From: Bolinopsis microptera
Lineage: Eukaryota; Ctenophora; Tentaculata; Lobata; Bolinopsidae
Direction: 5' to 3'
Assembly (NCBI RefSeq): GCF_026151205.1
Contig: NC_087075.1
Location: 15,866,571 to 15,930,570 of the forward strand
DNA: 64,000 bases
Under the pieces are notes generated by a model. That model was not told the origin of the DNA and did not search any database. It saw only the letters and a program-made list of their open reading frames with translations. Made by a program: the position numbers and the translations under genes. Positions within the stretch are counted from its first letter, which is position 1; every line of letters begins with the position of its first letter. Below are positions 467 through 63,211 of the stretch, one piece after another.

Positions 467-843
467 CTTGTCAGTATGTTTGAGAGGTTCAGACTGAGGA
501 TTAGAATTGACAGCAGAGCTGAGAGTTGTATAGTCCTGAGAAGTTTACTAGGTGCATTTTACAATGAAAAAGCAATATCTGTGTCTTTAAAATGCAGGTT
601 ACAAATCTTTTAAAAACATGCAATAACAACTATAGATATAAAGTTTACAGTACAGGAATCAAATAAAAACCAAAGCGGTATGATGAAAAACATTGTCATA
701 AACAATATACATAATTCACCCGTACAAATGTGTATACAATAGGTATAACTAGCAAAAGATTATATTTATCTTAGTTAAAAGTCTTTCTTTGGTTCAGTGC
801 CTCGTCTGTGCTGATTCTGTCCAAGCTTGTTTTTTCTTACTGT

Positions 844-2625
844 TTAGTAGTAGAAGAGTTCAATAGCACCAAGGTAGTCCTTAATCCATTCTCCGAAGAT
901 GGTGTATTTTTGTCCAGCGTCGGTCAGTTTACCGCTTACACTTCGGCTGATATCAGCATCGAATCTGAAAAGAAATTACTTGAAAAGCCAATCAAGACTA
1001 CCCTTTTGGTATAACAGTAAGATTCACCGAGTAAGAAATTAATCAGCAATAAAAAGCAGAGAATCTTAAACAAAGTTTAAACTCACTGGGGTCCCAGGAA
1101 ATAGGTGATAGAGTATCTATCAAAGTCAACTTCAGCAACTCTGTGTCTGACTGAGGGCACCTTGTTGTCGATAAGGTCATCTACCAGCTTTCCGATGTTG
1201 ACGATGAAGGAGTTTTCTCCGGTCACGGGAACGGCTCGGTACTGGTTCTTGTAGAGTACCTAAAACATTTCATCGTTTAAAAATTGAAATATGTTTCGGT
1301 TAGTGGCAGAAAGCTATAAAATATTAATTGAGTTTTCAACAAGATACAAGTATGTTAAAGCGCATATTCCAAATGTTGCGTTAGGAGTTAAATTGTTACC
1401 TCAAGACCATCGTTGTTGAAGGTGGAGAGGACGGTGACGGTAGAGTCAATGTGTTCCAGTTCTCTCAGGAGAGTTCCGTCAAAGTCAGAGTACATGTTGC
1501 TGTTGATCCTGCGAAAAATTTATTATCAGAAAGGATTGATAAATAATTGGTCATTTAAATTCAAGAAATAAAGGTTATTCTAAGGTTATTTAAAGATTCA
1601 TAACGTGAGCGAATATACGTGACTCTAAAGTCTGACTAATGATTATTCGGCTGAAAGTACTGGACGAAGAAGAATGTTTCTTACTTTCTTCGGATGGGGT
1701 ATTTCCTGAGTCCCATAGCGGAGAACTCGTCCTCAGAAAAGAGAGCAGGCAGATTGGGGTACTCCATGGCTCGGGCAATGCTCCTGATGAAAGCTCTTCC
1801 GACGTTCCTCCTGATTTCGAATCCAGCTTGGAAGGTCTCCTTGAATACTTTGTCGAAGGTGCAGTTTCCAGTCTCGGGCCACACGTTGGGTTCCTGGCAA
1901 TCGTATCTGAGTTTCTCGAGGATGTCGTCACTCTCGAAGCTTGCAGCTCGGGTCTCGTGGGGTCCAATGTTGTAGAGGTTCTTGTATTGGAGGGTGTTCT
2001 CAACATCGTCAAGTCCGGGGCAGTATCCTTGATATTGGTTATTTAAGCGCCATATTCAAGAATTGCATCACCGATATTAGTAAAATTATAAATCTTAGAT
2101 AAACCGTATGATAAATGAAAATCAACTATATGATCACCTCGATAAGCATTCTTGTTGGCGGGGTTGTGTCTCCTGATAGCAATCTCGTCCTTGACATCCT
2201 CATCCAGATCGTAGAACTGCTTCATGATGTCCTGTTCCAGAGAAGCGCTGTATTCAGGGACATCCACAACGTAGAAATATCCGTATTTCTTCATGGACTG
2301 GAGGAGGAAGGGGTCAATGTAGGAGTTGTCGTTGAGGAGGTCCAAGTATGGGATTCTGGCTACCCCATCGAACACACCCTCATTTTGTTCCGGCCACAGT
2401 CTGAAAGATATATAATTATCTTTGCAAGCTTCACTGGGGAGTAATTATCTTTGCAATCATGGAATCTTTTACAGTTACAGTTTGTAAGATAATCGCTGAA
2501 GAGTTATAAAGGTTCGTTCTTGTGAACCTATCATTTTGAAGAAGGAGCACTTACTTTTCCAAAAGATCGGGAAGTAAAGCTGTTGCAGGAGCAACCAAAA
2601 GTAAAACAACTGCGAACAGTTTCAT
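844..2625 (-). CDS. FYY-terminal isopenicillin-N-synthase-like Fe(II) oxygenase, secreted-type, six exons
   Basis: Spliced model on the minus strand: exons 2555-2625, 2138-2400, 1685-2027, 1400-1508, 1087-1259 and 844-964. They total 1,080 nt (359 residues plus TAA). All introns are GT-AG and the frame closes exactly. Residues 1-16 (MKLFAVVLLLVAPATA) form a signal peptide. A DIOX_N-type region starts around RIPYLDL (39-45). The catalytic fold holds the 2-His-1-carboxylate triad: H245-x-D247 (in EHIDSTVTVLS) and H301 (in SVRHRV). R310-x-S312 (DRYSITYF) is the usual co-substrate carboxylate site. The protein ends exactly in F357-Y358-Y359. Family knowledge: non-haem iron dioxygenases of the IPNS/2OG superfamily, about 330-360 aa. 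FYY-ending homologues were reported in luminous ctenophores and linked to coelenterazine formation; that role is a hypothesis. The start is chosen because it gives the signal peptide. No intact paralogue is seen nearby. Confidence 0.9.
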
Positions 2626-2814
2626 AGCTAAAAGTAAAGCAACATGAAATCAAGTTAATCTTAGACCTAACTAGGTGACTACGAATATTTGAATTGACTG
2701 AATGGATGCACGATTTGTATGATGTGTTAATAAAATACCTTTTAAAGATAAAATTTATTAGTAATAAAGTTTTGAAATGAACTGATTTCGACGATCTGGT
2801 TCACATGGCCCATA

Positions 2815-3212
2815 ACAGAGTAGTATGGGGTAGTATGGGGTAGTATGGGGTAGTATGGGGTAGTATGGGGTAGTATGGGGGGTAGTATGGGGTAGTTATG
2901 GGGTAGTATGGGGTTGTAGTATGGGGTAGTATGGGGTAGTATGGGTAGTATGGGGTAGTATGGGGTAGTAGGGGTAGTATGGGGTAGTATGGGGTAGTAT
3001 GGGGTAGTAGGGGTAGATGGGGTAGTATGGGGTAGTATGGGGGTAGTATGTGGGTAGTATGGGTAGTATGGGGTAGTATGGGGTAGTATGGGGTAGTATG
3101 GGGTAGTATGGGGTAGTATGGGGTAGTATGGGGTAGTATGGGGTAGTATGGAGTAGTATGGGGTAGTACGGGGTAGTATGGGGTAGTATGGAGTAATATG
3201 GGGTAGTAACCA
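2815..3212. repeat. minisatellite, 10-bp unit (GGGGTAGTAT)
   Basis: About 38 copies of a decamer GGGGTAGTAT, G-rich on the plus strand, with occasional length variants. It lies about 200 bp upstream of the oxygenase start. The open frame on the opposite strand (Thr-Pro-Tyr-Tyr repeats) is a by-product of the repeat. Confidence 0.95.
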
Positions 3213-5333: not shown

Positions 5334-8300
5334 TTAAATTTCTAAAAGTACGAAATTTGAGTTGTCCCAGTCCTTGTCATCCGGTTTATGTGCTTGTGCA
5401 GTAAGCACATGCTTGTTGACTGTAGACTTGAATGAATTTAGGAATTTGTCTTGTAGGCAAGTGGTGACATATTTTATGTCCTTGTTAATAATGTTGACTG
5501 TTTGGTTATATAACTTAGGCCCAATGTAAGAAATGCTCTTGTCTGAATTACATAAACGGTTAAATGGTACTGCAAAGAACTCAGGTTCTCTTCTAGGTGC
5601 GTTTAAGTTTGAAACAGTGAACATTCTTATAATATTTGGTGGTGCAGTGTTAGAATAAACTTTGTGCATTAAGCATAATATACATTTAGCTATCACGTTC
5701 GGTAAAGCTAATACTTCTAGTTTATTGAAAATTTCCTTTGTGTGTGAAGGTGTGCTATTCAGATCTTTGTCATAAAAATAGCGGTGGTATTGGTTATCTG
5801 CAGCGCGAATGCCCTTTTTCTGGGCCGAGAAGACTCTTTTAACGGAGTTTAGCGATCTTGTTCCCCAAACTGTGCAGCAGTAGTACAAGTGAGACTGAAC
5901 AAAGCTGTTGTATATCAACTTGAGTGCTTTGTTAGGTACTGAGCCTTTGAGTTTGTAGAGAATACCCGCATTTCTAGATACTTTAGTGGCTAAATGTCTA
6001 ATGTGGTGGGCCCAATTTAGCTTAGTATCAATGATCACGCCAAGAAACTTTTCGTGATAACTTTGCTTTAGTCGCTCACCTCCCATGTAGATTTCTATAT
6101 CCTTGGTTTTCTTATTTGTAAAGATCATATATTTAGTTTTGCTAGCATTTAATTTAAGCCCGTTATTAGTAGCCCAATCAATTATCAAAGTCAGAATCTC
6201 ATTCACCAATGCATTAAGTTGTTCAAATGTATCTGTACTTATTATTAGGTTTGCGTCGTCAGCGAAATAAATATGTTTAGCTAAATTACTAATCTGAGGA
6301 AGGTCGTTGATGTAGATTATGAACAGAATTGGTCCGAGAATGGAGCCCTGTGGTACTCCGTAGTTAAGTTTGAGGTGAGAGGACTTGCAGTTGTTGACGC
6401 TCACGTATTGCTCTCTATCGGTTAGATATGAGTGAAACCAAGATAAAGCCAACCCCCGAACTCCATAGTGCTCAAGTTTTCTCAGAAGAATACTGCTGTC
6501 AACCATGTCAAAGGCCTTGCTGTAGTCCAATAGAAGCAGTGCTGTGACCTGCTTTTTTTCTAGTGCCCTGTGAATATGGTTTTGGGCTTCTAGTAAAGCA
6601 TGTTCGCAGCTGTGCCCAGCCCGAAATCCGTATTGAGAGTCAAATAGGATTTTCTCTGTCTTTAAGTGATCTAATAGTCGCGCTTGCATAATTTTTTCAA
6701 AGATTTTTGAGAAACATGAGAGTAGTGAGATAGGTCGATAGTTTGAAACTTCAGCACGTGACCCACCTTTGTGAAGTGGAACTACTTTCGCGATTTTCAA
6801 TTTATGAGGAAACTTCCCCTGATGTAGAGACGCAGAGACTAGGCAGCTAAGCACTGGTGCAAGTATATTGCTCACTTTTTTCAGGGGAAGTATACTCATA
6901 TCAGAAGTCGACTTAATCTTCAAACCCTTAACTATTTCAATTATTTCTGATGCGGACGAATCTTCTAGATTCATGCTCCGCTGGCATTTGCTATCTTGAG
7001 TTTCTGTTACGATAGTCCTGCCCTCAGAGCATACGAGACCATTTTCTCTCTTAAGAGTCTCAGCTATATTGCAGAAATAGTCATTGAAGCTATTCGCAAT
7101 TTGCTGAGAATCTGTTATCTCGCTCCCATTATAGTTAATTTTGTTTATCTTAATTTTGCCTTTTTTCTTTCTGTTTAACAAGTTATTAACCATTTGCCAT
7201 TGTTTTCTGCTGTCGCTAGAATATTTTGTAAAGTACGCGTTGTAATATTTGTTTTTGGCCTTATCCACGTGTTTATTCACAAATTTCTTCATTTTCTTGT
7301 ACCTAATATCATTTTCAGTGGTCGGGTTTGTGACAAAATCTTCATAAAATTTATTTTTGCGATCACATGCGCACCGTAACCATTCTTGGATCCACGGCTT
7401 TGTGTTTTTACGGCGGCCTGGTTTACTCTTTTTTGCCTTAATTGGGAAATTTCGGTCGTATAGTTCACTATATTTTTTATCGAAAGCCTCAAATTTTTCA
7501 TCTACAGAATCATAGTTATTAACCAAGTTCCAGTCTACCGCAGAAATGTCGTTCTCGAACTTTTGGATACTGTCATCGTTTATTACTCGAGAAGACATTT
7601 CTGTTGTATCTTCTTGAAGTTTACAACTGAGCCTATTCTGATCAACCATGATTGTGACAAAAGTTGCCAAGTGGTCAGAGATTGACTCAGAAATTACTCC
7701 CGATTTTGTAACAGCGTGGCAATTATTGACGAAAATATGGTCAATGATTGTCGCACTGTGATCTGTGACTCTAGTTGGTCTAGATATCACAGGAGCGAAC
7801 CCATGCTCTGCTAGAGTGTCCACATACTTAGTGACAGAGTCTATTCTCCCGTAATCTAGTAGGTCTATGTTAGTATCACCGGCCAGTATGATATTTTTGT
7901 TTCGATGTCTTGCTAAGTTACGGAGGAAAATTTTTAATTGTTCAAGGAAACCATTCAAATCCCCACTTGGAGAGCGATATATATTACAGATTAACGCGTT
8001 TTTGTGCCCTTTCAAGGTAAGTTCTGCAACCAAGAATTCTCCTATCTTAGGGTTATCGTGGCAACATAGAGCGCTCTTAACGTTTATGTCAGATAATTCA
8101 CATAGTTTTTTGTTAACATATATAACTAATCCTCCACCACGATTTGACGCTCTGGCGGGAGTCTGAACATACGGTGGATAGAAACCGTCTAGTTCGAGCT
8201 CCTCTCCCTGAAAAGGCAAACATTCCGTGTTACAATTTGTTTCATTGAAGCAGAGAACGTCGTATTTTGTGTATTGATCTATATTCTCCCGAAATTCTTC

Positions 8301-8945
8301 AATGTTCCCATTAAGTGACCTAACGTTTAGCGAGAAAAGTTTTAATTCATACTCCTTCGTATTTTTTATTGCTTTCGCGGTATAGTATTTGCAGTTATTT
8401 AGAAGACTAGACGTTGTTTCCCATGGATTCAAATCAGCATCAGTATCATCACGATCACCTATTTGATTTGATAGGTGGTCGCGATTAAAGGGGTTAAACC
8501 TAATAGTGTTACTGAAATTTATCATGTGAAGCTGTCTAATGGAGACATCATATGCTGGGAAAATTTTTCTCAAGCATTCTTTGCAGCCTGTTGAGCCAGC
8601 AGAACATCTTGTGTGGGATAGGTTGTCACAGTAGCAACATTTGGTCATTTGTCTTACATTCCCAATTTTTGTGCAAGTGTGACATTTTTCTCGTTTATTG
8701 GAGACTGGGATTTGTATAGGCCGTGATGGTAATAGAGGCATGACGGCGCCCACTGGAAGAATTTCTGAAATGCAGCTGTAGCAAGACCATTCTCCAGTAA
8801 GTTCAGTTATGTCGCTAGGTGTTAGGTGAGCACATTTTGGGTGATATGTCATATAACAGATACTACAAGTGATGCTTATCTTGTGTGAGACTAGGCGCTT
8901 TGTACAGGCCTTACAGCTATTTTTACTACTTCGGATAACTACCAT
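5334..8945 (-). CDS. LINE ORF2: PHD finger, APE endonuclease and reverse transcriptase
   Basis: 1,203 codons, uninterrupted. The N-terminus has a PHD-type Cys/His cluster (residues about 11-60, starting CKACTKR) and a second Cys-rich ribbon (about 87-130, CHTCTKIG...CCYC). An APE-like endonuclease follows from about residue 205 (LFSLNVRSLNG, then FNETNC, GDTNIDLL and SDH near 425). The reverse transcriptase carries GVPQGSILGP (about 866) and the catalytic YFADD (about 893). A C-terminal region without RNase H follows. This architecture fits the CR1/Jockey group; the exact clade needs a phylogeny. The intact frame suggests a recent, possibly active copy of ORF2, although the element is truncated upstream. 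Confidence 0.9.
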   Translation of the reverse strand: MVVIRSSKNSCKACTKRLVSHKISITCSICYMTYHPKCAHLTPSDITELTGEWSCYSCISEILPVGAVMPLLPSRPIQIPVSNKREKCHTCTKIGNVRQMTKCCYCDNLSHTRCSAGSTGCKECLRKIFPAYDVSIRQLHMINFSNTIRFNPFNRDHLSNQIGDRDDTDADLNPWETTSSLLNNCKYYTAKAIKNTKEYELKLFSLNVRSLNGNIEEFRENIDQYTKYDVLCFNETNCNTECLPFQGEELELDGFYPPYVQTPARASNRGGGLVIYVNKKLCELSDINVKSALCCHDNPKIGEFLVAELTLKGHKNALICNIYRSPSGDLNGFLEQLKIFLRNLARHRNKNIILAGDTNIDLLDYGRIDSVTKYVDTLAEHGFAPVISRPTRVTDHSATIIDHIFVNNCHAVTKSGVISESISDHLATFVTIMVDQNRLSCKLQEDTTEMSSRVINDDSIQKFENDISAVDWNLVNNYDSVDEKFEAFDKKYSELYDRNFPIKAKKSKPGRRKNTKPWIQEWLRCACDRKNKFYEDFVTNPTTENDIRYKKMKKFVNKHVDKAKNKYYNAYFTKYSSDSRKQWQMVNNLLNRKKKGKIKINKINYNGSEITDSQQIANSFNDYFCNIAETLKRENGLVCSEGRTIVTETQDSKCQRSMNLEDSSASEIIEIVKGLKIKSTSDMSILPLKKVSNILAPVLSCLVSASLHQGKFPHKLKIAKVVPLHKGGSRAEVSNYRPISLLSCFSKIFEKIMQARLLDHLKTEKILFDSQYGFRAGHSCEHALLEAQNHIHRALEKKQVTALLLLDYSKAFDMVDSSILLRKLEHYGVRGLALSWFHSYLTDREQYVSVNNCKSSHLKLNYGVPQGSILGPILFIIYINDLPQISNLAKHIYFADDANLIISTDTFEQLNALVNEILTLIIDWATNNGLKLNASKTKYMIFTNKKTKDIEIYMGGERLKQSYHEKFLGVIIDTKLNWAHHIRHLATKVSRNAGILYKLKGSVPNKALKLIYNSFVQSHLYYCCTVWGTRSLNSVKRVFSAQKKGIRAADNQYHRYFYDKDLNSTPSHTKEIFNKLEVLALPNVIAKCILCLMHKVYSNTAPPNIIRMFTVSNLNAPRREPEFFAVPFNRLCNSDKSISYIGPKLYNQTVNIINKDIKYVTTCLQDKFLNSFKSTVNKHVLTAQAHKPDDKDWDNSNFVLLEI

Positions 8946-9427
8946 TTTTTGGCTGTAAATGATACTCTTGTTTAAATGTAGATATAGGTTTGCTACTGTA
9001 TATTAATATATAATAAAGTACACGGAAAAACAGTTACTGAAAGTATCTACTCCAGATGAGTGAGCCAAGAAAATGGGGCCAGGGAAGAGTGAGAAAACGT
9101 GCGAGGTTTTGTGAACACTCTGTCCGGGTCCCTAACTTCAGCTCCTGACTAGAGAAATCAATTCAGTTAAGTGTTATTCTGTGGGAATAAGTTTAAAAAG
9201 TTAATTGAAGTATGTGAAATGTGAATGTGACTTGTATTCTGTATTTGTAACTTGTAAGTGTATGTACTTAGTGGTCTGATTACGTGATTCAAATTAGTAA
9301 AGATAAGATTTCGATTAGCCGTAAGCTGGTGCAGACAAGACATGGTTCGTATACTGTACGATTCTTAGTAGATTAATAAGTATGTCCAAATTTTCGATGT
9401 AGTATGTTTGTATATTGTATTGCTGTT

Positions 9428-16383: not shown

Positions 16384-19300
16384 TTAAGTCACCCCGGTCT
16401 GATCCAGCTCTTCCGGCACAATTAAGCGTTTGGTGCGGTTTGCGAAATTGACAATTGTGGTGATGTGTTGGTTGTCGAATATGTCATTGACAGAGAGGTA
16501 GTAGTCTTGGAAATATTGACCTCTAATTTGGGCAATAGCCGGACACTGTCCAAGGAAGTGTGAGACAGTTTCCTCTCCGTCCCCGCACATAGGACAAGCA
16601 CTGGTGTTTGATTTGCAAATGGTGTGAAGGTGTTTATTTAGGCCGCAGTGACCCGTGATGAGGTGAACTGCAGTTCTGTAATCCTGTCTGTTGTTGCTGA
16701 GTGTAGTGTTGAGGTTTTTGATGATTTTGGCATGCTTGTGGCCGAGTGTCAGTTTGGTGTGTCTGGGACCGTCAGTTACCCAAGTTTCCTGATTCAGTCT
16801 GTTGACTTTGTTGTCGATTTGACGTTTGATGTAGGATTGTGGAATTGGACACTTCAAAGTGGATTCACTGATAGTGCCAAGCTTGGCCAGCTCATCTGCT
16901 TTTTCGTTCCCCCACAATCCGATGTGTGCTGCAATCCATCGTATATCTAGCGTGTTGTTGGATCCGAGTGAATTAAGAGAGTCGTAACAGTCTCTTGTAG
17001 TTCTACTCCGCGTTGAAAGTGCGGAGAGAGCTTGAATAGATGATAGACTGTCAGACCATATGATGATGTGTGTGTTGGTATATGTAGATAGATATTTGCA
17101 AGCTTCAATGATAGCGGTGAGCTCTGTTTGGTAAACAGTGCAATAATCAGGGAGCTTGAATGATCTTTCTTCAAGGGTGGTGTTATTGTTGTCAGTTGTG
17201 ATGATATAGCCAGCCCCGCATCCTGAGTCTGTGAGTGACCCGTCAGTGTAGCAGGTGATTGTTTCACTGGTAATGTTGTCTATGGTGTTTTGAAGTGAAT
17301 TTCTATATTCAGTGTTATCGGCTCCAGGAGTTGTGACGGTGAAGTGCCGTCCCAGCATCATGGTTGGTGTTGTTAGGTCTCTCGTTGCTCTAGGTGGAAT
17401 AATGAGATCTGCCATGAATTGTTTGTTGATAGTGGTATGATTTTTGATAGTTCCCTTCCTGAAGGCGATAGTTTCAAGAGTGAGGCTGCCATAAGCTTGT
17501 AGCCTGGCCGCACCCTTTGCTGCTTCGCCTTGCAGGAACAGTATGATGTCAGAAGTGTCGGTGAGGTGATTCAATGCGATAAAAGGTGTGCTTGGCATGG
17601 CACCAGACATCATTCTGAGTGCCAATGCCTGAACACGTTTGAGTTTCTTCGCGTTATAGTCCGTTTGAGTGGCCCTGATCCATATACTACAGCAGTAGGA
17701 TAGGATTGGACGGATGACAGCCGTGTACATCCATTTGCATGTTTTGGGGCTCATACCCCATGTGGGGCCGACAGCTCTTCGACATTGCATGAGGGATGCC
17801 GTGGCTTTTTTGGTGGTGTTGATGATATGTTCATTGAAGTTGAGTTTGCTGTCCAAGGTCACTCCTAGAAATTTAGCAGACTTGGAAAGACCTATAATGT
17901 TGTTGCCAACTGTTATAGGTCTTAGAGTCCACTTACTATTCCAGGTAAACATGACTATCTGAGTTTTAAGGGCGCTAATAGATAGCTCTTTGGTTCTGCA
18001 CCAATTTTCTATCGTTTTAATAGTTTTGCATGTTCGGTCCCAGATGATGTCTAAATCATCCCCTTCCGCTAGAGACAACAGATCATCCGCAAAGGCTTGC
18101 AGGTAACCCGGGATGTCTTTTGCGGTAAAGGAAAGGAGATCGTCGACTACCAGGTTCCAGAGAAAAGGAGAGAGAATGCCTCCTTGGGGGCAACCTCGCC
18201 TGATCCGTACTCTTCTCGACTTATCCTTATGATTTAGTGTGATGAATCGATTGGTTACCATGTTGATGATCCACTGTGCTGTAGCCAAGTCCACTTTCGT
18301 AGCCTTGACTGCTTCAGAGATAGCCTTGAACGAGACATTGTCGAAGGCGCCCTCTATATCTAGAAAGACACCTAGGACATATCCTTTCTTGGCTATTCTG
18401 CGCTCAATGGTGTGAGTAACTTTATGAAGTGCCGCTTCTGTGGAGCAGCCCTTCTTAAAGCCGAATTGTCGTTTGTTGATATCATTAGCTATGTTGAGGT
18501 CATGTTGCATATGCCATAAGATCACTTTCTCCTGCAACTTTAACATCACAGGCGAAAGAGTGATCGTTCGAAATGACTTAGCTTTGTTGTAGTCGGTTTT
18601 TCCAGGCTTAGGGAGAAAGATTCCAAGAGAGTCCCTCCACAAAGTTGGGATGTGTTGCGTTTCATGGTTTTTTGTCATAATGTTTTTTGTTATGTCTTTG
18701 ATATGAGCCCAGGCTTTCTGGAATATGATAGGTTTTAGAGTGTCAGGTCCTGCAGCCTTCAAGGGATCGAAGGATAGGAGAGCCTTTTCGATTCTTTCAG
18801 GGCTGTAGATTTTGTCTAGTAAGTCTGTGGAGATGGGTAAGGGGCAGAGAGGCGGAACTGGCGGATCAGTAACACTCTCCTTGAAGTGGGTTTGTGTCAT
18901 GACCTCCAGTGTCTCCTCTGCGTTTTTGGTGAGTTCGCCATTTGGTTTATAAACGGCTTCAAGTTTGTTATTGGTGTCATTACAGGTTTTCAGAATCTTG
19001 TTCATCCTTCCAGATTCCTTAACCGATTCTGTGTCTGCGCAGAATTTCCGCCACGCATTGCGCTGGGAGTTGGACAGGATCTTGTTGTATTGCTTGTTGC
19101 TTTCTCTAAGAGCGAGCCACGAAGCATCAGTTTTGATTCGACGAGCTGTGATGAGTTTGCGTCTTATACCCCTCTGTGCTTCCTCAACTTCTCGAGTTAG
19201 CCAGGGTGGTTTTCTGACAGCGCTGGAGATGTAAGTAATGGGACATGCCTCCTCGAAGGCCGCTCTGAGAGCAGTATTAATGGTGTTAACTTTGTGATCA

Positions 19301-20193
19301 ATGTCGTGTGGTGTGTTAACGCAGGTGTTGTGGAGATCATTGTTGTTGTAAAGAATCTCGTCAAATTTCGCCCAGTCAGTGTTCTTGACTAGGCGTATTT
19401 GTCTTGGTTCTTTTTTGGGACCAGAAGTAATGTCGAACATGATATATCTGTGATCGGAGTTTGAGTAAAGATCACTAACGTGCCAGTTACTGATCAGTTC
19501 AGCCCCCATTTGGTTGGTAATAGTGAGGTCAATGATGGAATTATGACCTCGTGAGTTGAGGAATGTTGGAGTTGAACCTTTGTTGGAACAGGAGAGCCCT
19601 AGCGACGAGAGGAAATCAAGTAGTTCCTCTCCTCTTCTATTGCACAACCTGTTACCCCAAAGAGTGTGTTGGGAGTTGGTGTCAGAGCCTATTATGAGTG
19701 GTATTTTATTGTCTATAGCGTATTTGGCTAGAGGTGTGGTTTCGTGGGATGGAGCTGGTCCATTAATATCCATGTACGAAGCTGCCAGAATTACTTCTGT
19801 CGAGCTAAGTTGAATCTTAATAGCAACTTGATCCGGGGTTGTGAATTGCGATAGTTCCCAACTTTTTTCAGCTAGGTTTTTGTGTATTACTATGGCGGCA
19901 CGGGGCCTAATGTCCCCAACTTTGTAATAATACTCGGTTAGTTCTTTGCTTATTGGTGGAATTAGGTGTTTGTTATTAGTGTATGGTTCAGTCGCTAGTA
20001 CAATAGGATTTTTCCTGCCATGAGTGTTCACCAGCAGGGTTTTCCAAGCGTTGTACTTGCGTTTAAGGTTGATTTGAGTAACAGAGTAATATTCATGATG
20101 AGTTTTACCTGTTTTTTTGGTATTGGGGACGTGGCGTGCAGCACCTGCAGTTACCCTCACCGGTCGGGTACTAGGACCTTTTGGATTGGGCAC
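16384..20193 (-). CDS. LINE 2 ORF2: endonuclease, reverse transcriptase, RNase H, zinc knuckle
   Basis: 1,269 codons. The APE endonuclease lies at the N-terminus (VTQINLKRKYNAW near 40, LATEPYTNNK, GSDTNSQHTLWG near 170, NSDHRYI). The reverse transcriptase has RRGCPQGGILSP and AFADDLLSLAEG (about residue 703). The RNase H domain begins with CYTDGSLTDSGCGAGY (about 983), continues with WSDSLSSIQAL and ends with GNEKADELAKLG. The C-terminal Cys/His motif is CPMCGDGEETVSHFLGQC (about 1205). RNase H after the RT plus a terminal zinc motif is the I/Ingi/Loa-type layout. The upstream ORF1 overlaps its start, suggesting reinitiation or frameshift for translation. Confidence 0.93.
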   Translation of the reverse strand: MPNPKGPSTRPVRVTAGAARHVPNTKKTGKTHHEYYSVTQINLKRKYNAWKTLLVNTHGRKNPIVLATEPYTNNKHLIPPISKELTEYYYKVGDIRPRAAIVIHKNLAEKSWELSQFTTPDQVAIKIQLSSTEVILAASYMDINGPAPSHETTPLAKYAIDNKIPLIIGSDTNSQHTLWGNRLCNRRGEELLDFLSSLGLSCSNKGSTPTFLNSRGHNSIIDLTITNQMGAELISNWHVSDLYSNSDHRYIMFDITSGPKKEPRQIRLVKNTDWAKFDEILYNNNDLHNTCVNTPHDIDHKVNTINTALRAAFEEACPITYISSAVRKPPWLTREVEEAQRGIRRKLITARRIKTDASWLALRESNKQYNKILSNSQRNAWRKFCADTESVKESGRMNKILKTCNDTNNKLEAVYKPNGELTKNAEETLEVMTQTHFKESVTDPPVPPLCPLPISTDLLDKIYSPERIEKALLSFDPLKAAGPDTLKPIIFQKAWAHIKDITKNIMTKNHETQHIPTLWRDSLGIFLPKPGKTDYNKAKSFRTITLSPVMLKLQEKVILWHMQHDLNIANDINKRQFGFKKGCSTEAALHKVTHTIERRIAKKGYVLGVFLDIEGAFDNVSFKAISEAVKATKVDLATAQWIINMVTNRFITLNHKDKSRRVRIRRGCPQGGILSPFLWNLVVDDLLSFTAKDIPGYLQAFADDLLSLAEGDDLDIIWDRTCKTIKTIENWCRTKELSISALKTQIVMFTWNSKWTLRPITVGNNIIGLSKSAKFLGVTLDSKLNFNEHIINTTKKATASLMQCRRAVGPTWGMSPKTCKWMYTAVIRPILSYCCSIWIRATQTDYNAKKLKRVQALALRMMSGAMPSTPFIALNHLTDTSDIILFLQGEAAKGAARLQAYGSLTLETIAFRKGTIKNHTTINKQFMADLIIPPRATRDLTTPTMMLGRHFTVTTPGADNTEYRNSLQNTIDNITSETITCYTDGSLTDSGCGAGYIITTDNNNTTLEERSFKLPDYCTVYQTELTAIIEACKYLSTYTNTHIIIWSDSLSSIQALSALSTRSRTTRDCYDSLNSLGSNNTLDIRWIAAHIGLWGNEKADELAKLGTISESTLKCPIPQSYIKRQIDNKVNRLNQETWVTDGPRHTKLTLGHKHAKIIKNLNTTLSNNRQDYRTAVHLITGHCGLNKHLHTICKSNTSACPMCGDGEETVSHFLGQCPAIAQIRGQYFQDYYLSVNDIFDNQHITTIVNFANRTKRLIVPEELDQTGVT

Positions 20194-20599
20194 TGTGTCG
20201 GGGGGCTGGTCGAAGTCGAATAGCAGCAGCCAGCGTCTCCGGGAGAAAACTGTGTTTCTCTAAGAATGTCTCACCCGGAGGTGAGACATCCACCCAGATC
20301 CGCTGCCTCTGTTTAAACTCCGTCGACGGGCCCCCACCTTCATGTAGCTGCACAGCCACTGCCTCCCAGATGTTGGTGATCTGTATCCTATTCCACGGTG
20401 GGGTAGGATTGAGAGATAATGAGTTATTGTGTATATGGGAGATTATGTGCGCGTTCCCGCGCAATGTTGTTGAAATAGGTCCTTTAATCACAATAATGTC
20501 TGATGTTAAGCGTAAATCAGAAAACCTGATCCGCTCTGCGAAAATCAATGTCTCATCCGTGTTAGGCAGTTGATACATCTCATTACCGCTATCAGTCAT
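20171..20599 (-). CDS. LINE 2 ORF1, small
   Basis: 142 codons from the ATG at 20599 (MTDSGNEMYQLPNTDE); it overlaps ORF2 by 23 nt. No zinc knuckle or coiled coil is obvious; no family is recognised. The same frame stays open upstream through the 162-bp repeats to 21262 (363 codons in all), because the unit is a multiple of three. A longer ORF1 with three 54-residue repeats is therefore possible. I prefer the short form because the upstream part is Gly/Thr/Ser-rich and repeat-derived, but I cannot decide. Confidence 0.5.
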   Translation of the reverse strand: MTDSGNEMYQLPNTDETLIFAERIRFSDLRLTSDIIVIKGPISTTLRGNAHIISHIHNNSLSLNPTPPWNRIQITNIWEAVAVQLHEGGGPSTEFKQRQRIWVDVSPPGETFLEKHSFLPETLAAAIRLRPAPRHSAQSKRS

Positions 20600-31710: not shown

Positions 31711-34700
31711 ATAATCGCACTTAATTAATATGTTTTCGGTTGCTCTCAAAGCAAAGCGATTAGTTTTGGGCACTATCGTCGCGGAGTCGAGTCCGCGGCG
31801 GAGCCGCCGGACTCCGAGCGGACTCCGAGCGGACTCCGGCGGAGCCGCCGGACTCCGAGCGGACTCCGGCGGTGCTCCGCCAAAATGTATTTACAGTGGA
31901 CTCGAGTACATTTTGGCGGACTCCGAGCGGAGCCGAGCGGACTCCGAGCGGACTTTAAAGTCCGCCGCGGACTCCGAGCGGCTCCGCGGCGGCTCGGCGG
32001 AGTGTCCGCCGCGGACTAAGCCACTAGGCGGACTCCGGTCCGCCGCGGACTCCGGCGAAGTGCTTGGCGGACTCCGCCGGACCTCTCCGCCAGACTTGAA
32101 TCCGGCGGAGTCCGGCGGAGCTTGGCGAAGTCCGCCAGCTCGGCGGACTCCGCTCGGAGTCCGCCGGACTCCAACAGAGTCCACTGACTTCCGACCTCCG
32201 TCTTCCGACCCTCGGCTAAATTTGTCACGTGACATACAACATAGCATTTTGCAATATTGTGGTCAGATGAAAAGGTCGCTAGTGATAAACCTTAACCATT
32301 ACCCTCACAATGTCAATAGTGTACAACTCTAGTCCTAACTTTGACCCTATAATGTATAAACGTTGACCCTAACCCTCCACCCAACCGTCCGCAGCGAAAT
32401 ATCAATGTCATTGACTGGTCACGTGACCAAAACAATTTTGTCATATTATCTCATATGGGGAAGCGTTTTTAGTTTTACCCTACACGTTGCATGTGGCGTC
32501 ATTCGGCCGGATCCCAGCAAGCAAAAATACGTCGACCATCACATTCACAGGACGACGCCAGCCAGCACTCTCTACGCTCTTCGAGCTCCGATCGTCCTGT
32601 GACGAAGTAAGGACGAAGCCTGAGGTCCTCAGGTAACATCGACCACCGATTGAAAATTCAAAGATTTTTTGACATAAAGGTCAAATGTAAAACTAAAATC
32701 TTGATGCTGATTGATTGACGACGTCAATTTTTGAGCACAGCGCAAGCGCATGCGGAAAAGGACCGCGTAGCTAGTCAAGATGTTGATAAATATGTGGCTT
32801 GTGGCGCGATGTGTTGCTCTAACTATAGCCCTCTCGCTTGCAGTAGCGCGCGACCGCCGGAAATGGGCTCTTACTAATTCGCTCGCCCAAAAATTTCACG
32901 TGACTTTGGTTTTTATGGTTTTACAGCCGTACAAAACGGTTTTACATAAACCCTAATCCCAACCCTAACCCTAACCATAACCCCGAAGCTAACCATAACC
33001 CTTACCACAACCCTAACCCTAACCCGAGCCCTAAACAATCGAATTCATGTTTTACTAGCCTGTCACGTGACCAAAACGGTTTTTTGCCCATAACTCTCCA
33101 GGGAAGCATTTTTACCCTACGTCATGGGGGGTGATTCGGAATCAGCGTCCAAAAATACACCGATTCCGATCAATTTCATACCCAAAGGGCCTTTTCACAA
33201 GAATTTTCTTAAAATTTGGGCGAGCGATTTAGTAGGAGCGCCGGAAATGACTTGTGGAACAAGCGCGCCCGCAGCGGCGCGAAAGCACCTGGTTAGCTAA
33301 ATGAACGCGATGTGCCTTGCATTGTAGGATGAAATCCTACTAGCTGACGCCACTCGCAGCTGTAATGTTCGCTGTACGTCAGCGATCGAAATTTATACGC
33401 GTATCACCCGTTAAGATGTGCCACCCGACGCGCCACGCAATTTATCTCGTTGCTCGTCGCACGTCGACGAACAACGAAGCTCGTTGCGACGCGCAATGAG
33501 CTGCCAGGCTAGGACATCATCCTGGTCCAACAAATTTTGGAGAGCGCGAGCGATTTTCTCCAAAAATTTAATGAGGGCGCCGACTTCCACTCTGGCTAGG
33601 TTTCTTTTTATACTTATAGGGGGTGCACGATAAAAATAAAGTTGCTTGGATTTTAAAAATATTTGTACCACTGTTTTCTAGAGACTGTGAGAATTTTCAC
33701 AATACCAAATTTGTTATACCTTTTTGGAAAGATCAGTGAGTTTCGCCTAGGTGCCATATTTGATGGTGCGCGGCTTTTGGAGCAAAAGTAGCTGTAAAAG
33801 TCGCGTAATTTGACCAAATTCGTCCAAATTTGACCATTTTTGTCGTATTATTCGGATTTATCTTCAGTTCCTTAAATGAGATCATTCTGGAAATTGGCGA
33901 CGACCTTCCAATTGGGCTTTCACAACTGTCCGAAAAATTTGGTGGATATCGGAGTTGATATAGTAATAAAAATGGGGCAAAATACGCTGCTTTTAGCTGT
34001 AACATAATGTCTGATGGTTGGATATGCTTTAAATTTTTCGGACACTTTCCTTGTAAGTTTATGAGTAAGCTTACCAATTTTTGTTGCAATTGGAGGTCGG
34101 GAAGGATACTCTATATCTATTTGTTTGAAGAAAATTGTGCTGGCCGAAATTAGCGCTAAAAAACCATCCTTCAGTCGGCACGCGCGGCTCACTGTCGATG
34201 GCGCACTACCTACTTCTTACCCAGCGCGCGTTCCTTAATGCTCGGTGAATTTTGCCGCGCCTCTGGTGAGAGAAACGACCTTGAGATTAGCTGGCTAAGT
34301 AACTGTAAGGTTTCTTTTATAACGCCCACTAGAGTCTAGTATAAACTAAACTCCACTGTACCAACTTGGCGTAGTTTGATAATATAATTTATTTATCATA
34401 AACAATAAAGTTTATGAGCTGATAGCACATCTTAACGGGGGATACGCGTATAAATTTCGATCGCTGACGTACAGCGAGCAGCACAGCTGCGAATGGCGTC
34501 AGCTAGTAGGATTTCATCCTACAAGGCACATCGCGTTTACCTAGCTAACCAGGTCATTTCCGCCTCCGGCGGTCGCGCGCTACTGCAAGCGAGAGGGCTA
34601 TAGTTAGAGCAACACATCGCGCCACAAGCCAAATATTTATCAACATCTTGACTAGCTACGCGGTCCTTTTCCGCATGCGCTCGCGCTGTGCTCAAAAATT

Positions 34701-36019
34701 GACGTCGTCAATCAATCAACATCAAAATTTTAGTTTTACATTTGACCTTTATGTCAAAAAATCTTTGAATTTTCAATCGGTGGTCGATGTTACCTGAGGA
34801 CCTCAGGCTTCGTCCTTACTTCGTCACAGGACGATCGGAGCTCGAAGAGCGTAGAGAGTGCTGGCTGGCGTCGTCCTGTGATGGTCGACGTACTTTTGCT
34901 TGCTAAAAACGCTTCCCCATATGAGATAATATGACAAAAATTGTTTTGGTCACGTGACCAGTCAATGACATTGATATTTCGCTGCGGACGGTTTGGTGGA
35001 GGGTTAGGGTCAACGTTTATACATTATAGGGTCAAAGTTAGGACTAGAGCTGTACACTATTGACATTGTGAGGGTAATGGTTAAGGTTTATCACTAGCGA
35101 CCTTTTCATCTGACCACAATATTGCGAGCGTGCTAAATCACTCTACAGTCGATCTTCGAGATTGTTCTAAAAGGGCCCCCGACAGTTGAAACCAATTTCA
35201 ATCGATGTATTTTCGGACGCTGATTCCGAATCACCCCCCATGACATAGGGTTAAAATGCTCCCCTGACGAGATATTGGCGAAAAACTGTCTCGATCACGT
35301 GATATGACCATATAAGGAAGTTAGTCTAATTTCTCGTTAGGGTTAGGGTTTCAATGTATGTTTTTGTTAAAGATTGGGTTAGGGTTAGGGTTGGGATCAG
35401 ATTAGAGGGTTAGGAATTCGAAAAGTCGTTCAGGACCAGCTAGAGAACGGGTTGAAAAAGTCACGTGACAGTCGAGTGTAGAGTGATTAATCATCATCCA
35501 CAATATTGCAAAATGCTATGTTGTATGTCACGTGACAAATTTAGCCGAGGGTCGGAAGACGGAGGTCGGAAGTCAGTGGACTCTGTTGGAGTCCGGTGGA
35601 CTCCGAGCGGAGTCCGCCGAGCTGGCGGACTCCGCCAAGCTCCGCCGGACTCCGCCGGATTCAAGTCTGGCGGAGAGGTCCGGCGGAGTCCGCCAAGCAC
35701 TCCGCCGGAGTCCGCGGCGGACCGGAGTCCGCCTAGTGGCTTAGTCCGCGGCGGACACTCCGCCGAGCCGCCGCGGAGCCGCTCGGAGTCCGCGGCGGAC
35801 TTTAAAGTCCGCTCGGAGTCCGCTCGGCTCCGCTCGGAGTCCGCCAAAATGTACTCGAGTCCACTGTAAATACATTTTGGCGGAGCACCGCCGGAGTCCG
35901 CTCGGAGTCCGCTCGGAGTCCGGCGGCTCCGCCGCGGACTCGACTCCGCGACGGATAGTGCCCATTTTTGTAATCGCACTCCCTGAAAAAAAACCGACAA
36001 AAACCGGTGCGATTATGAA
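31711..36019. mobile_element. 4.3-kb foldback element with long inverted arms
   Basis: The left arm (about 31711-33420) and right arm (about 34431-36019) are inverted copies. The outer part (31768-32190 and 35545-35966) is GC-rich and built from GGACTCCGAGCG-like units; the inner parts share GATCGAAATTTATACGCGTA and flanking sequence. Each arm holds telomere-like tracts (CCCTAA near 32946-33040, TTAGGG near 35338-35400), at different places, so the arms are not fully collinear. The central 33421-34430 has no recognised frame. Long frames in the arms (Arg/Ser/Pro-rich) come from the repeats. Precise ends are uncertain (ATAATCGCAC is shared) and no target duplication was found. Confidence 0.75.
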
Positions 36020-62126: not shown

Positions 62127-63211
62127 TTATTTGACAATGGCTAGCAGAAGAGACCTGTAATCTCCACTGGTCTCATCACTAATGTAGTCACTGAGACTCC
62201 TATCCAGCAGTCTTCCGAACTCTACTTTTATCTCCTCCAGATCTATTTCTGATCTCCACACTATGACCCGTATTAGTTCGTCATCGTCTGTCCCTACTCC
62301 CTTCATGATCTTAAAGAGCGCCTCAGCAAAGCACGCCGTGGGTCTCCTGATCAGGTTAACGATCTGCAGATATATCTCCTGATGTTCCCCTATCATCTCT
62401 GATCGTATGCTCTCCCCAATATCCTCGTACGCTTCAACCCGGTACTCCGCGAACACCAACTTCAAGTGCTCGTAACCCCGGGAAGCCAGCAGAGCGTTGA
62501 AAACAGGATCCTCCGTGCCGAACCTGTTAGGTCCAGCTTCTGAGAGGTCTTTAGCGTCTTGTTCAGCTAGGGCTGGGTCCGGTATCTCGCTCTCGTTTCT
62601 GCTCCCTTGCAGAATTGCTAGAACCAACCGTTTGAAACCGCTGCTCACGTTTAACATACCGCCAAGGTCCCTTTCGATTGAAACGTTGAATTTTTGGATG
62701 TAGAATATTTTCAGTTCGTTAAGGCTCCTATTATCCATGCCAATTAATACCTCTATAAGTGAGTGAGGCATACTCGTTTTTATGGCTCGGTGAGCTTCTT
62801 TAGCCAGCAGCTGGGGTACTGGCAGGATTAAACTTTTTACCAGTTTTAAGAAATGGGAGCTGAGCTCCGATTTCAGTTCCGTTTTGAGGGATTTGCCGTA
62901 CATTTTCTGAAATTTAATGTGATCGCCATTGTTGTTATTTGTAAAGATGAAATACCATTACATTAAAATGAGACGACTAAAATCACTGTAAAATTCTCGT
63001 ATTTATATGCCAAAGTAATAAAATGACAATGTGGATAAGAAAACGTTACCTTGAATTTGGTACAAATATCTAATCTCTGTTCAACTGTCCGGTTACTCAG
63101 TATCTTAATAATTGCAGCCTCGTCTGTTCCAATCCCCTTCATTGCTTTTTTGAGTTCTCGGCTGTCATTTTCAGCATTGCAGCTCTCATCCAAAACAATT
63201 GTCCCTGTCAT
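62127..63211 (-). CDS. annexin, four-repeat core, two coding exons
   Basis: Exons 63050-63211 (54 codons) and 62127-62906 (259 codons plus TGA/TAA-type stop) join in phase 0 to 313 residues, the usual size of a four-repeat annexin with a very short N-terminal tail. Repeat 1 has MKGIGTDEAAI (24-34). Repeat 2 has lost its G-x-G-T (SMPHS instead). Repeat 3 has RFGTED. Repeat 4 has MKGVGTDDDE with its acidic partner D303 in TSGDYR. Known role: Ca2+-dependent binding to acidic phospholipids at membranes. By eye only repeat 4 keeps the full type II calcium site; repeat 1 has Leu, and repeat 3 probably Gln, at the acidic position. There is no signal peptide, so it is cytosolic. The start sits in a triplicated segment (63209-63411), so upstream untranslated exons are likely. 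Confidence 0.92.

Follow-up and report, generated by a model that had tools for sequence, protein, structure and literature searches.

Our data show that the gene at 844..2625 on the minus strand of the window (i.e., the whole 64-kb stretch of DNA analyzed here, C4:15866571-15930570, with C1, C2, and so on denoting contigs of the same genome) is a confirmed new genomic member of a family already published as a candidate maker of coelenterazine, namely the isopenicillin N synthase (IPNS) homologues ending in Phe-Tyr-Tyr (FYY) that were described in 2015 from luminous ctenophores (Francis et al., PMC4488382). Judged by its sequence, this gene, hereafter FYY-A, carries the features of the ctenophore FYY family as given in the accessible text of PMC4488382. 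We put the probability that it takes part in coelenterazine biosynthesis, by any step, as the published hypothesis has it, at roughly one half, and the more specific reading that the FYY tail itself is the substrate seems doubtful. New here are the number of gene copies in the genome, the constancy of the protein, the finding that two diverged FYY genes of one genome end alike, the independent connection to a genome with photoprotein genes, and the place of the FYY tail in the predicted structure.

RESULTS

A six-exon gene ending in Phe-Tyr-Tyr

The FYY-A model is a single gene of six exons, with its ATG at 2625 and its stop at 844, encoding 359 amino acids. We enumerated 32 GT-AG splice combinations around exon borders chosen by eye, and just one of them is open from ATG to stop, yielding exactly the six-exon, 359-residue product with a Phe-Tyr-Tyr end that the original prediction had proposed. 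All exons lie on the minus strand. Exon 1 (2555..2625, 71 nt) holds the start codon and a signal-peptide-like N-terminus, MKLFAVVLLLVAPATA-LL, and exon 2 (2138..2400, 263 nt) encodes R111 (codon 2139-2141), which aligns to IPNS Arg87. Y221 (codon 1699-1701) is found in exon 3 (1685..2027, 343 nt), and the predicted iron ligands H245 (codon 1451-1453) and D247 (codon 1445-1447), invariant in our 46-row alignment, are located in exon 4 (1400..1508, 109 nt). The next exon (1087..1259, 173 nt) contributes the predicted iron ligand H301 (codon 1143-1145) together with the RxS motif, i.e., R310 (1116-1118) and S312 (1110-1112). Exon 6 (844..964, 121 nt) encodes the predicted last helix and the C-terminus GAIELFYY, and its stop codon occupies 844-846. 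The protein ends in LGAIELFYY, with the codons TTC TAC TAC (847..855) specifying Phe357-Tyr358-Tyr359.

The intron phases are 2, 1, 2, 0, and 2, and the G+C content of the coding sequence is 0.486 versus 0.27-0.34 in the introns. At all five introns, the GT/AG sites are retained in six further copies from the same genome, whose exons are ungapped and of equal length, unlike the introns, which vary in length and sequence. This conservation across six paralogues argues for the gene model on comparative, rather than RNA, grounds.

The iron triad and R310/S312 were found at the residue numbers originally predicted, with Y221 in addition. These numbers are also those published for ML199826a of Mnemiopsis leidyi, because both proteins share the same spacing; ML199826a has H245, D247, H301, R310-S312, Y221, the RELEHxD motif, a GAIELFYY C-terminus, and a SignalP-predicted signal peptide cut at ATA-LL (PMC4488382). 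By inspection, the N-terminus of FYY-A is hydrophobic and carries the same ATA-LL site, and the protein is probably routed to the secretory pathway. We also considered whether FYY-A is M. leidyi ML032920-35201 and rejected this identity, given that two published exon primers mismatch at 3/27 and 2/20 bases; for the other two, the best match still leaves 8/31 and 10/28 mismatches.

As for the other content of the 64-kb window, no tRNA genes and no Rfam families were found. Minisatellites with 11-base and 10-base units (158-454 and 2820-3208) flank the duplicated FYY block. Two open reading frames of non-LTR retrotransposons are present on the minus strand, one (5337-9002) with endonuclease and reverse transcriptase domains and a PHD-like stretch below the cut-off, and the other (16387-20259) with endonuclease, reverse transcriptase, and RNase H. 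By eye, two long and similar reading frames on opposite strands (31715-32329, plus; 35497-36012, minus) may represent inverted termini of a mobile element. An annexin gene with three Pfam annexin stretches (62130-62957, by eye to 63247, minus strand; E 5.9e-38) was the only other host gene recognized among the ten long window ORFs scanned. None of the 358 ORFs in the window ends in FYY, which is uninformative since the real last exon falls below the ORF length limit.

Copy number and selection

A search of the whole genome (264,652,675 bases in 232 contigs) returned 62 exon-wise matches and, together with local gene modelling, revealed that FYY-A is a multi-copy gene, a point absent from the original prediction. 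Six further copies (T1-T6) form a head-to-tail array at C6:20,510,082-20,523,986 (minus strand), with exon lengths as in the window copy and GT/AG kept at all five introns. T1-T5 are open and end in GAIELFYY. The last array gene, T6 (C6:20510082-20511830), keeps its splice sites and FYY end and has an in-frame stop at codon 26, which could be an erroneous base, one allele of the gene, or the mark of recent pseudogenization. A block of ~2.1 kb (545..2633, minus strand) is common to T6 and the window copy at 89%.

The coding sequence of the window copy is 97.8-98.1% identical to those of T1-T6, with 18-23 silent versus 1-2 replacement differences (dN/dS 0.011-0.029); against T1, there are 20 silent changes and 1 replacement. 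The products differ from that of the window copy at position 6 (all six copies), at position 322 (T3), and by the T6 stop. Among themselves, T1-T6 show 0-1 replacement and 5-14 silent differences. Their introns are 76-94% identical to those of the window copy, with gaps amounting to as much as 73% of the length. The pattern of substitutions points to purifying selection, or conversion combined with selection, as what keeps the FYY-A protein constant.

A second FYY gene and two homologues with other ends

The genome also harbors a second FYY gene, FYY-B (C4:133,653-135,480 for exons 2-6), for which we built a 363-residue model using the most signal-like of six candidate first exons. It is 84% identical to FYY-A (291/345 aligned residues by BLAST, 301/359 by MAFFT), and the two genes differ by 85.2 silent changes over 232 silent sites (dS 0.50) and 75.8 replacement changes over 845 sites (dN 0.096). 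Their last 17 residues are identical, with three codons silently changed there. Conservation covers the whole of this terminal stretch and not FYY in particular. We left two FYY-B pieces at C4:668-671 kb out of the gene count, as they match only from exon 3 on and lie inside a palindrome (C4:665500-674193) with arms of ~4.2 kb, four pieces of which are each 100% complementary; the palindrome is possibly an assembly artefact (fold-back).

Two homologues have other ends. In the one at C12:9.885-9.891 Mb, the frame runs on to ...VDVGGH, and in the one at C6:13.906-13.908 Mb, there is no FYY in the frame read, whose final exon is possibly not complete. Exon by exon, their significant matches to the FYY-A protein are 41-60% (C12) and 30-56% (C6:13.9 Mb) identical. 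We counted FYY-B and seven loci of FYY-A, one of them with a stop, versus one locus for each of these two nearest non-FYY relatives, all of these counts being lower bounds.

We built a midpoint-rooted tree of 21 rows, with all ctenophore rows taken from one genome and the non-FYY ones among them assembled from exon matches. In it, the three FYY rows (two being near-copies) grouped together with support of 100/100. This group is nested in a larger branch that also holds the C12 and C6:13.9 Mb genes, both of which fall outside the FYY group itself, and a further oxygenase, at C6:8.36 Mb, is placed among the 15 bacterial rows. The tree program issued warnings about long branches and about the odd letter make-up of the C6:13.9 Mb row.

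Family membership

The FYY-A protein matched PF03171 at 39.7 bits (cut-off 23, E 6.6e-10) and scored just short of the DIOX_N cut-off (PF14226, 27.1 bits versus 27.3, E 7.1e-6) in Pfam. A phmmer search against solved structures matched IPNS at 6.8e-6 with the triad aligned, and an NCBIfam search gave 0 families at E <= 1 and hence no match to the curated IPNS model. The penultimate residue is Tyr358 rather than a metal ligand of the Gln330 type as in true IPNS. We place FYY-A among the non-haem iron oxygenases of the IPNS/2OG-Fe(II) superfamily, in the IPNS branch. The "IPNS-like oxygenase" of the original prediction stands, based on the PF03171 match and on the IPNS enzymes among the fold matches described below.

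Bacterial relatives were obtained by scanning for a DNA motif of fixed spacing, which gave at least 120 stretches, 80 of which were listed. From the listed stretches, 85 ORFs matched the FYY-A protein at E <= 1e-3, and 46 had usable coverage; one was dropped, 45 were aligned, and 15 of these entered the tree. The triad and RxS are invariant in all 46 rows (FYY-A plus the 45 bacterial relatives). Since the RxS serine is kept in 45/45 bacterial relatives and is common to ordinary 2OG oxygenases, it does not show peptide binding; RxS and the Tyr, being present in all 45, do not discriminate. An FYY end occurs in 0/45 aligned bacterial relatives and, by inspection, in 0/85 of the matches listed from this one-motif sample. 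Viral contigs searched with the FYY-A protein yielded no relative, and prokaryote genomes searched with an IPNS fragment yielded no confirmed one.

Predicted structure and position of the tail

An AlphaFold2 model of FYY-A based on the alignment of 45 bacterial relatives reached a mean pLDDT of 79.9 and a pTM of 0.82 (pLDDT 34 when folded without an alignment). A Foldseek search with this model returned 742 PDB chains at E <= 10, 257 of them at E <= 0.001. The first matches listed were an ancestral ethylene-forming enzyme, thymine hydroxylase, and IPNS of Pseudomonas aeruginosa, and the highest query TM-score among the 50 matches listed, 0.70 (E 5.9e-16), belonged to 1ips_A, the resting Aspergillus nidulans IPNS with manganese. 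FYY-A is thus predicted to have the oxygenase fold of the superfamily. In the model, the last helix spans residues 343-358, with FYY at its end; the last block has a confidence of ~67.

Before substrate arrives, the metal of IPNS is ligated by Gln330, the next-to-last residue; once the substrate has displaced Gln330, the last residues extend the final helix over the pocket, as reported in the accessible parts of PMC5637899 and PMC6097109. The segment that moves on substrate binding is Asn326-Thr331 (PMC5637899). FYY occupies positions 45-47 after the RxS serine, and an equal count from IPNS Ser281 leads to 326-328. By this residue count, which is not a superposition, FYY falls within the mobile segment, and the FYY tail would therefore correspond to the part of IPNS carrying the metal-visiting residue. 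The same count makes the FYY-A tail approximately three residues shorter, with Gln330 two residues beyond its end, and so Gln330 itself would have no counterpart.

Photoproteins in the same genome

An aequorin query gave 55 matches in the genome (a lower bound), 54 of them free of inner stops and 51 covering query residues 16 to 191 or 192. They form tandem arrays on C1, C3, C5, and C13 (e.g., C1:21999412-22006929, C5:17012730-17026401, and C13:11082451-11094340), with a spacing of often ~0.94-1.03 kb, and they also occur on C2, C9, and C10. M. leidyi has roughly ten photoprotein genes, fewer than the matches here. At two loci checked, with one protein each, the best matches were berovin and mnemiopsin-1 (E 5e-121 or better). 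The host carries the light-emitting protein type of luminous ctenophores. The assignment of the window to a luminous ctenophore, initially drawn from the FYY gene, is thus backed by photoprotein genes that are independent of it.

DISCUSSION

A candidate role in coelenterazine synthesis

Coelenterazine can be read as a Phe-Tyr-Tyr in which a bond joins the Phe amine to the beta carbon of the final Tyr, the carboxyl of that Tyr is gone, and the central part of the peptide has closed to an imidazolone. Such chemistry needs a tripeptide with a free terminal carboxyl, and IPNS forms a comparable oxidative N-C(beta) bond. De novo synthesis of coelenterazine in ctenophores has reportedly been treated in a published study.

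For FYY-A, we infer iron binding and secretion, as well as a substrate and an order of steps, as follows. A free C-terminal Phe-Tyr-Tyr, the protein's own or its neighbour's, would enter the iron pocket as the C-terminal tail does in resting IPNS, with its last carboxylate held by R310/S312/Y221. Fe(II)/O2 would oxidize the beta carbon of this last Tyr, whose carboxyl group would be lost. The tripeptide may be freed by a protease before ring closure, in which the Phe amine would bond to that beta carbon and the imidazolone would close. The 2015 authors proposed an autocatalytic cleavage and cyclization that, by their own remark in the available text, has no precedent (PMC4488382).

Several findings speak for a role in this pathway, including the full iron triad with RxS and Tyr, the predicted oxygenase fold with FYY at the end of the terminal helix, the residue count that sets FYY in the mobile segment of IPNS, the dN/dS of 0.011-0.029, the number of FYY copies, the photoproteins in the genome, and the published occurrence in luminous versus non-luminous species (PMC4488382). 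Other observations count against it, among them the RxS motif common to ordinary 2OG oxygenases, the conservation of the whole terminal stretch, the tail some three residues shorter than in IPNS, and the confidence of ~67 at the end of the model. The family was originally found by searching for FYY ends, and one transcriptome study of a copepod that makes coelenterazine had, as far as its accessible text goes, no such gene (PMC6140675). Our survey of the open-access literature found no functional (biochemical or genetic) test of an FYY protein and no account of the Bolinopsis microptera FYY genes.

A reading we regard as somewhat unlikely takes FYY-A for an oxygenase with no connection to luminescence; FYY would then be an aromatic cap giving structure to the last helix, which non-luminous species would have lost incidentally. 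Of 16,543 filtered M. leidyi gene models, 374 contain FYY and 2 end in it, both belonging to this family (PMC4488382); these counts, with an assumed mean length of ~400 aa, imply roughly one FYY end per proteome by chance, so that the ending alone is weak evidence. The conservation nevertheless exceeds chance, with T1 differing from the window copy by 20 silent changes versus 1 replacement and FYY-B sharing all of the last 17 residues, although such strong constraint would fit any important function and extends over the whole last helix. Set against the idea of a mere cap is the published distribution, since an FYY homologue was reported from nearly every ctenophore transcriptome examined, in keeping with the literature behind the original prediction, and from neither Hormiphora nor Pleurobrachia (PMC4488382). 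These are just two non-luminous species from one family, as far as the accessible text tells. A further point against the cap is that the FYY genes have multiplied, whereas their two nearest non-FYY relatives, as far as seen and with all counts as lower bounds, have not. We also judge it unlikely that FYY-A is a pathway enzyme whose substrate is separate, be it a later intermediate, an amino acid, a dipeptide, or a free peptide, with its FYY tail going unconsumed and serving at most as a product-like lid. Enzymes of this fold normally turn over catalytically, a free tripeptide would suit the same pocket residues, and the IPNS tail likewise leaves the metal on substrate binding and then covers the pocket (PMC5637899, in the part accessible). 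A separate substrate, however, offers no explanation for the terminal FYY identity of FYY-A and FYY-B.

The window copy itself might be a dispersed duplicate that has no working promoter and is becoming a pseudogene, which we regard as very improbable. At 8 bases above its start codon, homology to T2-T6 breaks off, which gives it a promoter unlike theirs; over the 300 bases upstream, it can be aligned to the array copies only with 35-43% gaps; and T6, the copy closest to it in the 3' flank, is the one with the in-frame stop. Decay of this kind is at odds with a dS of ~0.09 against T1 accompanied by 20 silent changes and a single replacement, and with intact splice sites and frame; this ratio and the open frame indicate either selection for most of its separate life or conversion that keeps the window copy alike.

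Returning to a role for FYY-A in coelenterazine synthesis, the most far-reaching form of it is that each FYY protein is both enzyme and ribosomal precursor, oxidizing its own Phe-Tyr-Tyr in a single turnover and giving one coelenterazine per polypeptide. We consider this form improbable. Each photoprotein binds one coelenterazine, and a single turnover would explain why an array of FYY genes exists alongside multiplied photoprotein genes, when the closest relatives lacking FYY show no such multiplication as far as seen. Should the tail prove to be the substrate, the reaction would be of a new kind, with an oxygenase converting its own C-terminus into a small molecule. The locus supplies exact gene models and, besides one copy with a stop, seven FYY genes that are open; these models, together with the structural expectation of a tail at the iron pocket, make the 2015 hypothesis directly testable.

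Comparison with known systems

One close counterpart is IPNS of A. nidulans (PDB 1bk0, 1ips), which is like FYY-A in its fold (predicted for FYY-A) and in its residues, as His214/Asp216/His270, Tyr189, Arg279/Ser281, and Arg87 all have aligned counterparts. The A. nidulans enzyme and the FYY-A model likewise share a terminal helix, which in IPNS lies near the active site (PMC5637899, accessible part). The two are 25% identical over the fragment compared, and FYY-A differs by its signal-peptide-like N-terminus, by Tyr in place of Gln330, and by matching no NCBIfam model. Bacterial oxygenases annotated as "isopenicillin N synthase family" resemble FYY-A in the triad, RxS, Y221, and R111, invariant in 45/45, whereas they are only 19-27% identical to it and form a separate tree branch (15 rows).

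The FYY proteins of M. leidyi (ML199826a and its relatives) share with FYY-A the IPNS homology, the residue numbers, RELEHxD, GAIELFYY, and the ATA-LL site. M. leidyi also has two non-FYY proteins with 45-48% and 33-36% identity (PMC4488382), values that can be set beside those of the C12 and C6:13.9 Mb homologues described above. The two species differ in the number of FYY genes, with two complete and two incomplete ones reported for M. leidyi in the accessible text of PMC4488382 versus six tandem copies, one dispersed copy, and a second FYY gene here.
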